NCBI GenBank assembly: GCA_018242585.1
Contig: JAFEBQ010000010.1
Location: 78,618-142,617 of the forward strand
DNA: 64,000 nucleotides
Source: Planctomycetota bacterium
GTDB taxonomy: Bacteria > Planctomycetota > Planctomycetia > Pirellulales > PNKZ01
Direction: 5' to 3'
In this document: positions 13,518 through 29,042 of the stretch, piece by piece
Numbering within the stretch: position 1 is the first letter of the stretch
How the letters are laid out: every line of letters begins with the position of its first letter
The notes under the pieces: generated by a model
Told to the model about the DNA's origin: nothing
Databases searched by the model: none
The model's input: only the letters and a program-made list of their open reading frames with translations
Position numbers and translations under genes: made by a program

Positions 13518-13640
13518 GGCAGCCGGTTTTTCAGCCCTCGGCGATAGCGGTTGGGGGCCGCCGAAGACAGGAAAACCCTCGCGTTTGGTATTTTGCAGGG
13601 CCAAAGGCCCGATCCCATACCAGCCAAAGGCCTGGCCTTT

Positions 13641-13774
13641 GTAGGATGCATTCCATGCACCTTATGGCGAGTTCTCTATCTGTAAAAGGCGCCTGGCGTT
13701 CGCTAGTGCCGAGGCGAGATTGCCACTGTATTCCTTTTGGAAGCCACCGATAAGGTGCATGGAATGCACCCTAC
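13641..13774. repeat. Palindromic element with 25-base inverted ends
   Basis: The ends 13641-13665 and 13750-13774 are inverted copies matching at 24 of 25 positions. Each end also contains its own palindrome around GGTGCATGGAATGCACC. The interior of about 84 bases has no gene. The shape is that of a small non-autonomous palindromic element, possibly REP-like; no transposase is nearby. Confidence 0.75.
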
Positions 13775-13811
13775 CAAGACTGAGTTGCCCTTGCTGCGTA
13801 ACTCCCTAAAC

Positions 13812-17551: not shown

Positions 17552-17580
17552 CGCGGGGCTCACCACGTTCTCGCGTCTCG

Positions 17581-17731
17581 GGTGGCACCGATGGCTCGGC
17601 CATCGGTGTTGCGCAGCAACAAGAAACTCGATGGGCACGCGCAACCCCAATGGAAACTCGCCACCCGTGAGGGACGGCGCTCGAGGTTTCTTGTGGCCTT
17701 CGGCCACCCAGGTGCAAGCACCTGGGCCACC
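17581..17731. repeat. Multi-hairpin palindromic element, copy 1
   Basis: The element is closed by GGTGGC (17581-17586) pairing with GCCACC (17726-17731). Inside are hairpin H1 (CACCGATGGC with GCCATCGGTG), H2 (GTTGC with GCAAC), a central long-range stem (CAAGAAACTCGA at 17620-17631 with 17681-17693), H3 (GTGGCC with GGCCAC) and H4 (CCCAGGTGC with GCACCTGGG). Similarity to copy 3 at 25774-25924, in inverted orientation, extends about 15 bases outward. It lies between two convergent genes. Confidence 0.85.
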
Positions 17732-17777
17732 CTCGCGACAGCGTTCTGAGACGTGCTCTAGAAAAACGCCGTAGCGC

Positions 17778-22614: not shown

Positions 22615-22735
22615 GTGGGTAACACCGACAACTTGTTGCCGGTGTCGCGAAGCGACACGAGGGCAATGGGTCGCCGCCCTGATCCCTTTTGCGGCTGCGC
22701 CGCCCGGACAAGCAAGTTGTCCGGGCCACCCTCGG
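22615..22735. repeat. Multi-hairpin palindromic element, copy 2 (diverged)
   Basis: This copy keeps the plan of copies 1 and 3 with different bases in the stems: closing GTGG with CCAC; H1 (CACCGACAAC with GTTGCCGGTG, one mismatch); H2 (GTCGC with GCGAC around GAA); H3 (GCGGC with GCCGC); H4 (CCCGGACAA with TTGTCCGGG). The central long-range stem is not preserved. It lies just after the channel gene. Confidence 0.7.
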
Positions 22736-25726: not shown

Positions 25727-25773
25727 GCCGGCGCTTGCTGCTGCTTGAAGTGTTCTCGGACCTCCGTCGCATA

Positions 25774-25924
25774 GGTGGCCCAGGTGCTTGCACCTGGGCG
25801 GCCGAAGGCCGCAAGAAACCTCGGGCGACGCGTGGCAAGCCAAGCAGGCCTGCTACGTGCGGAGAACGGCGCTCGAGGTTTCTTGTTGCTGCGCAACACC
25901 GATTGCTTCGCAATCGGTGCCACC
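25774..25924. repeat. Multi-hairpin palindromic element, copy 3
   Basis: This is the inverted-orientation relative of copy 1. GGTGGC (25774-25779) pairs with GCCACC (25919-25924). H4 (CCCAGGTGC with GCACCTGGG) is identical to copy 1, H3 is GCGGCC with GGCCGC, H2 is identical, and H1 is CACCGATTGC with GCAATCGGTG. The central stem is complete (CAAGAAACCTCG with CGAGGTTTCTTG). It lies between convergent genes. Confidence 0.85.
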
Positions 25925-25965
25925 CAAGTCGCGAGAACGCGGCGAGAATTGCTCTTGTTTCGGCG

Positions 25966-29007: not shown

Positions 29008-29042
29008 AGGGACAGGTCCATTTATTAACTGGACCTGTCCCT
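29008..29042. repeat. Perfect 13-bp palindrome at island edge
   Basis: AGGGACAGGTCCA (29008-29020) and TGGACCTGTCCCT (29030-29042) pair perfectly around TTTATTAAC. Similar GGGACAGGTCC-type palindromes occur with REP-associated transposases in many bacteria. It lies just after the cyclase remnant at the left edge of the accessory island. Confidence 0.8.

Follow-up and report, generated by a model that had tools for sequence, protein, structure and literature searches.

Five-armed palindromic repeats of a planctomycete genome as probable REPIN-like elements moved by RAYT transposases

Introduction

The 64,000-nucleotide stretch of the Planctomycetota bacterium contig JAFEBQ010000010.1 analysed here (the window) holds three multi-hairpin structures, referred to as copies 1, 2 and 3, which raise the question of what these folds are and how they came to lie between genes. 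The original prediction, made from the letters alone, recognised no named family in them and offered either an intrinsically terminating structure or a non-autonomous mobile palindrome as an explanation. The analysis presented below favours the latter: the structures are very probably REPIN-like, non-autonomous five-armed mobile repeats that a RAYT (REP-associated Y1 HuH transposase) mobilises in trans. RAYTs have been described as domesticated and non-mobile, and REPINs as spreading by an unproven route; the related TnpAREP is known to process its cognate single-stranded REP DNA, for which a conserved motif and a hairpin are needed (PMC8266576).

Results

All three structures were found to be present on re-inspection. 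The 151-nt element represented by copies 1 and 3 has a foot (GGGTGGC/GCCACCC) outermost, then hairpins H1 and H2 facing H3 and H4 on the opposite side, and innermost a central stem (CAAGAAAC/GTTTCTTG) enclosing a loop of about 55–60 nt. The closing stem GGTGGC/GCCACC of the original prediction is one base longer than described, and the fixed order of hairpins holds directly for copies 1 and 2 and, only after reverse-complementing, for copy 3, which lies on the opposite strand. Copy 2 follows the same plan with different stems, and both its foot (GGGTAAC/GCCACCC) and its central stem are degraded; the long-range stem, which had been assigned to two copies, is kept in copy 2 as well, with 7 of 8 pairs (Table 1). 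When folded as single-stranded DNA (ssDNA) and compared with 200 shuffles, copies 1 and 3 folded far better (z −5.3 and −6.4, respectively) and copy 2 moderately so (z −2.8). A five-arm parser gave scores of 39 and 46 for copies 1 and 3 vs. a maximum of 34 among ten shuffled windows. The score of copy 2 (31) is by itself at chance level, and this copy has 22 other near-full-length homologues (79–91%) in its own genome; matches scoring 30–34 were disregarded as chance level unless similarity backed them.

The supposed three-copy element proved to be one plan in two families, copy 2 belonging to the second. In the 5.57-Mb, 56-contig draft genome, which judging by its named relatives is Pirellulales-like, about 40 dispersed copies of the 151-nt element in both orientations and about 23 near-full-length copies of the copy 2 family were found, mostly between open reading frames (ORFs) as judged by an ORF heuristic, these numbers being modest vs. 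the hundreds reported in pseudomonads. In most copies, GGGTGGC or GGGTAGC, a foot of the GT[AG]G type, precedes H1 and recurs inverted after H4, and two inverted REP-type ends pair into one fold as in a REPIN. A search of 58 relatives with the 151-nt element returned full copies from its own genome only, the others having H2 and the stem in common.

The stem changes between copies are truly compensatory, as had been predicted. In an alignment of 30 copies of the 151-nt family, 98.0% of the cells at 39 pairs were paired, and sliding the partner by 1–3 columns left only 21–49%. Two-sided changes were seen at 8 pairs (shuffled mean 2.6) and in 29 cells (shuffled 7.8 ± 2.7), where cells count sequences, not events. 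In none of 500 shuffles did the pairing, the number of two-sided pairs or cells, or the covariation score reach the real value; a measure of “further pair types” was not above shuffles. This alignment was relied on instead of a swapped-arm comparison, which is partly circular since the parser picks stems by pairing. Instead of selection on a recognised fold, such covariation might reflect the copying of one arm from another (template switching, palindrome correction) or a few stem variants inherited by descent, and two-sided cells do outnumber one-sided ones (about 10, again counted by sequence). However, the five-arm plan is kept with unrelated stem sequences across genomes and phyla, and therefore needs maintenance. 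We regard this explanation as rather unlikely, and it concerns how the stems change, not what the elements are.

The original prediction had also called for a REP-type transposase with the same ends in its flanks, and such genes were found both here and in relatives. Among ten Y1_Tnp matches in the genome, L035, L036 and L037 are RAYTs, reaching 105–111 bits with the NCBIfam model NF047646 “REP-associated tyrosine transposase” (cut-off 80) and failing the IS200 model. Across seven RAYT proteins, NF047646 gave 83–117 bits and NF033573 at most 45 (cut-off 55). The HuH motif HVH and the motif YMHxNP with the single catalytic tyrosine are invariant or nearly so across 17 RAYT proteins, the Y1_Tnp domain is matched by PF01797, and the closest solved chain is 4er8 TnpArep. 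Membership in IS200/IS605 was rejected, as the curated cut-off of the IS200 type was not reached.

Both L036 and L035 are nested in the five-armed plan. To the left of the L036 gene, the order is GGGTAGC, ACCGGTTGC..GCAACCGGT, TCGC..GCGA and CAAGAGGC, and to its right GCCTCTTG, TGGC..GCCA, CACCGGTTGC..GCAACCGGTG and CTACCC. The L035 element (contig C27) shares its central stem with the 151-nt family and resembles copy 3 at its ends (81–82%, E 4e-6), which makes its RAYT the likeliest candidate driver of this family. Before L037 lies a half element; after it come a small ORF and then a complete element (C22:107480-107532) with arms matching copy 2. A RAYT flanked by its cognate repeat is thus seen for the copy 2 family, as well as in genome G007 (see below), the 151-nt family showing only partial end similarity to L035. 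In the same genome, a RAYT remnant of 54 residues, 61% identical to L036 (L094, G000:C8:66500-69500; match C8:67920-68081), is directly followed by a five-armed element, and a Y1 transposase of another kind, with ends reading AAAAGGGGATAAGTCCC (L034, G000:C29:49114), is apparently inserted into a truncated 151-nt element.

The common plan reads GGGTRGC foot, H1, H2, CAAGAGG half-stem, RAYT, CCTCTTG half-stem, H3, H4 and GCYACCC foot, and it borders RAYT genes in the genome itself, in about 18 other planctomycete genomes and in Desulfarculales, which bears out the guess of a non-autonomous mobile palindrome. A RAYT search of 147 genomes of the order yielded 18 more close members (43–63% identity), and in these order-mates five-armed elements or element halves enclose or flank the RAYT genes. 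By direct reading, genes nested in one element include L066, L067, L068, L073, L079, L080 and L081, while L069, L070, L071, L072, L076 and L077 lie between complete tandem elements. A scan of named genomes added Planctomycetota, including Aeoliella straminimaris, and Desulfarculales, whose L145 and L146 show the nested plan as in planctomycetes. Most central motifs read CAAGAGG/CCTCTTG; covariants include CAAGAAAC, CAAGAAGC and CAAGCGGCTAA.

Complete five-armed elements also form tandem arrays around RAYT genes, as in the neighbourhoods of L076 (G018:C6:78900-80500) and L072 (G039). More distant RAYT-like genes (L083, L084, L086, L088) have GGGTGCCA-footed hairpins instead. This suggests that the foot tracks the transposase clade. 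A RAYT tree labelled for the five-armed fold was not used as evidence, its branches being long, the label not monophyletic and several “other” labels unchecked individually.

Gene-bearing and gene-less forms were found side by side. In G007, a gene-less element corresponds to the first 97 and the last 88 nt of the RAYT element L079 at 92–94% identity, and the gene-less elements there are, judging by sequence, deletion derivatives of the RAYT element. The planctomycete metagenome-assembled genome FR_30 bears nine RAYT elements of 780 nt, 95–97% identical, which start with cgcGGGTGGCC and finish with GGCCACCCgcg, with identical borders, unrelated flanks and no visible target duplication; the ORF is open across the region in all nine, one having a changed C-terminus. 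Because nine near-identical copies with fixed borders stand in unrelated flanks, the RAYT-bearing unit itself appears to move. Immobility of the RAYT gene as a unit is a reported behaviour, not a definition (PMC6006769), and the FR_30 units depart from it. The RAYTs of the window's own genome are divergent from each other and unit mobility was not seen among them; we infer movement there.

Several observations weigh against movement by RAYTs. No RAYT in the draft genome has the exact H1/H4 stems of the 151-nt family. Nor did we find any empty site; for the L080 element, the two genus-mates searched were too diverged, with only the neighbouring gene usefully matched (71–73%). Finally, about half of the copies lie in a 30+30-nt TAGAGC...GCTCTA frame common to unrelated palindromes, and another mover could have spread some of them. 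This frame (TAGAGCGSKTCTC...GAGAACTGCTCTA; e.g. L010) encloses three different palindromic interiors and was also seen at L104, L106, L107, L108, L112, L113, L115, L119 and L122; it is possibly a TA-flanked miniature inverted-repeat transposable element (MITE) or a recombination mosaic.

If such a MITE carried the five-armed cassette, it would be the real mover in this genome, which would agree with the presence of both frame halves on 10 of the 40 copies and of one half on 13, and with the two other palindrome families surrounded by the same frame. We consider this very unlikely, however: the frame is absent from 17 copies, similarity among the 14 copies that lack it and have intact feet stops just beyond GGGTGGC/GCCACCC, and no frame surrounds the RAYT-borne elements, whether here or in other genomes. 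The exact frame-end motif occurs at 11 sites only, and these, partly inspected, yielded no transposase with such ends; searching with joined flanks for empty copies of this frame gave half-matches only, in other repeat families.

Least probable is a transcription terminator or mRNA 3′-end stabilising structure selected at gene 3′ ends, which would fit the strong folds, the compensatory changes and the 17 of 35 copies classified by the ORF heuristic as lying between convergent genes, but not the symmetric C-rich ends with no T-tract, the copies in both orientations with 6 in divergent contexts, the Rfam scan of the element with no match, the sigma-70/terminator scan with nothing above shuffles, or the element ends that also border RAYT genes. 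An intrinsic terminator or an Rfam RNA was rejected on the absence of a stem with a T-run and of an Rfam match. The location directly after gene 3′ ends holds for the window copies and not in general, the 35 classified copies being convergent in 17 cases, tandem in 12 and divergent in 6. A secondary effect of the copies on transcripts is possible.

Table 1. Coordinates of the five-armed elements and their arms in the window
Feature	Position	Strand	Remarks
Copy 1, probable five-armed non-autonomous element	17580..17732	+	GGGTGGC ... GCCACCC; ~40 genomic copies, 22 at >=92%
Copy 1, H1 hairpin ACCGATGGC/GCCATCGGT	17587..17607	+	2 pairs with two-sided changes
Copy 1, H2 hairpin GTTGC/GCAAC	17608..17620	+	covariation alignment
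Copy 1, central long-range stem, 5′ half CAAGAAAC	17620..17627	+	covariation alignment, helix 4
Copy 1, central long-range stem, 3′ half GTTTCTTG	17686..17693	+	covariation alignment, helix 4
Copy 1, H3 hairpin TGGCC/GGCCA	17694..17706	+	first pair U-A in 16 copies, C-G in 13
Copy 1, H4 hairpin CCCAGGTG/CACCTGGG	17707..17726	+	covariation alignment
Copy 2, second five-armed family, H4 CCCGGACAA/TTGTCCGGG	22617..22731	+	resembles element beside RAYT gene L037; 23 near-full-length genomic copies
Copy 2, degenerate central stem CACGAGGG (22656-22663) / CCCTTTTG (22684-22691)	22656..22691	+	7/8 pairs
Copy 3, copy 1 family, inverted	25773..25925	-	H1 on right (25898-25918), H4 on left (25779-25798)

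Elsewhere in the window, GTAG-footed palindromes form an inverted pair at 13637-13778 (GTAGGATGCATTCCATGCACC), a classical REPIN layout, and their stems also flank a RAYT-like gene, L039 (C24:10851). A lone near-perfect palindrome, AGGGACAGGTCCATTTA/TAACTGGACCTGTCCCT, lies at 29008-29042.

Discussion

The mechanism that we propose is as follows. Each gene-less element would consist of both ends of a RAYT transposon, with a short loop in place of the transposase gene. As ssDNA, the ends would pair via the closing foot (GGGTRGC/GCYACCC) and the central stem (CAAGAAAC/GTTTCTTG or CAAGAGG/CCTCTTG), such that the two hairpins on each side and the paired ends give a single five-armed fold. RAYT may recognise the GTGG/GTAG foot and the hairpin at each end, and the fold would bring the ends together, thereby allowing the enzyme to act on both feet. 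Most probably, RAYT would then cut and rejoin the DNA through a single-stranded intermediate, and the unit would spread, presumably by a replicative route.

We also lean, if only slightly, towards the view that this planctomycete RAYT lineage, found in Desulfarculales as well, comprises true autonomous insertion sequences (ISs), whose ends pair across the gene and which move as a unit and shed gene-less copies. REPINs and “domesticated” RAYTs are believed to go back to an autonomous ancestor, and this lineage, if of that nature, would represent its living counterpart. Gene-bearing and gene-less forms with common ends would offer a tractable autonomous/non-autonomous pair for studying how REP-type repeats are excised and copied and what the extra arms do.

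Taken together, we place the elements in the REP/REPIN–RAYT realm. As mobile repeats they are of a known kind, and their elaborate form was absent from the literature found, that is, open-licence papers without their supplements, and an earlier description is possible. IS200/IS605 elements are alike in the Y1 HuH transposase, the hairpin ends and the lack of a visible target duplication; in contrast, the transposases described here pass the RAYT cut-off but not that of IS200, and the two-hairpin ends of the elements pair together. In the work on GTAG-tagged palindromes, REPtrons and TIRtrons (PMC3733652, 2013), GTAG repeats are reported from the PVC superphylum, R. baltica has many tyrosine transposase genes that are flanked by repeats, and structured spacers occur in some dimers; a five-armed unit or a gene nested in a paired fold is not described there, supplements aside. 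In REPtrons and the TnpAREP classes (PMC6006769, 2018; Corneloup et al. 2021, PMC8266576), cognate GT[AG]G hairpins with RAYT-specific stems border the RAYT gene, just as some genes here lie between complete elements, whereas FR_30 holds nine near-identical RAYT units with fixed borders. In layout, the elements resemble the REPIN (Bertels and Rainey 2011, PMC3116915), a dispersed gene-less unit tied to a RAYT, with two inverted REP-type ends, a GT[GA]G-like foot, a paired spacer and compensatory changes, for which a less stable “clover” fold has been mentioned. The elements of the window differ in having two hairpins per end and a conserved central stem, which make five arms in about 115–150 nt, and in that the RAYT gene itself often lies inside the unit.
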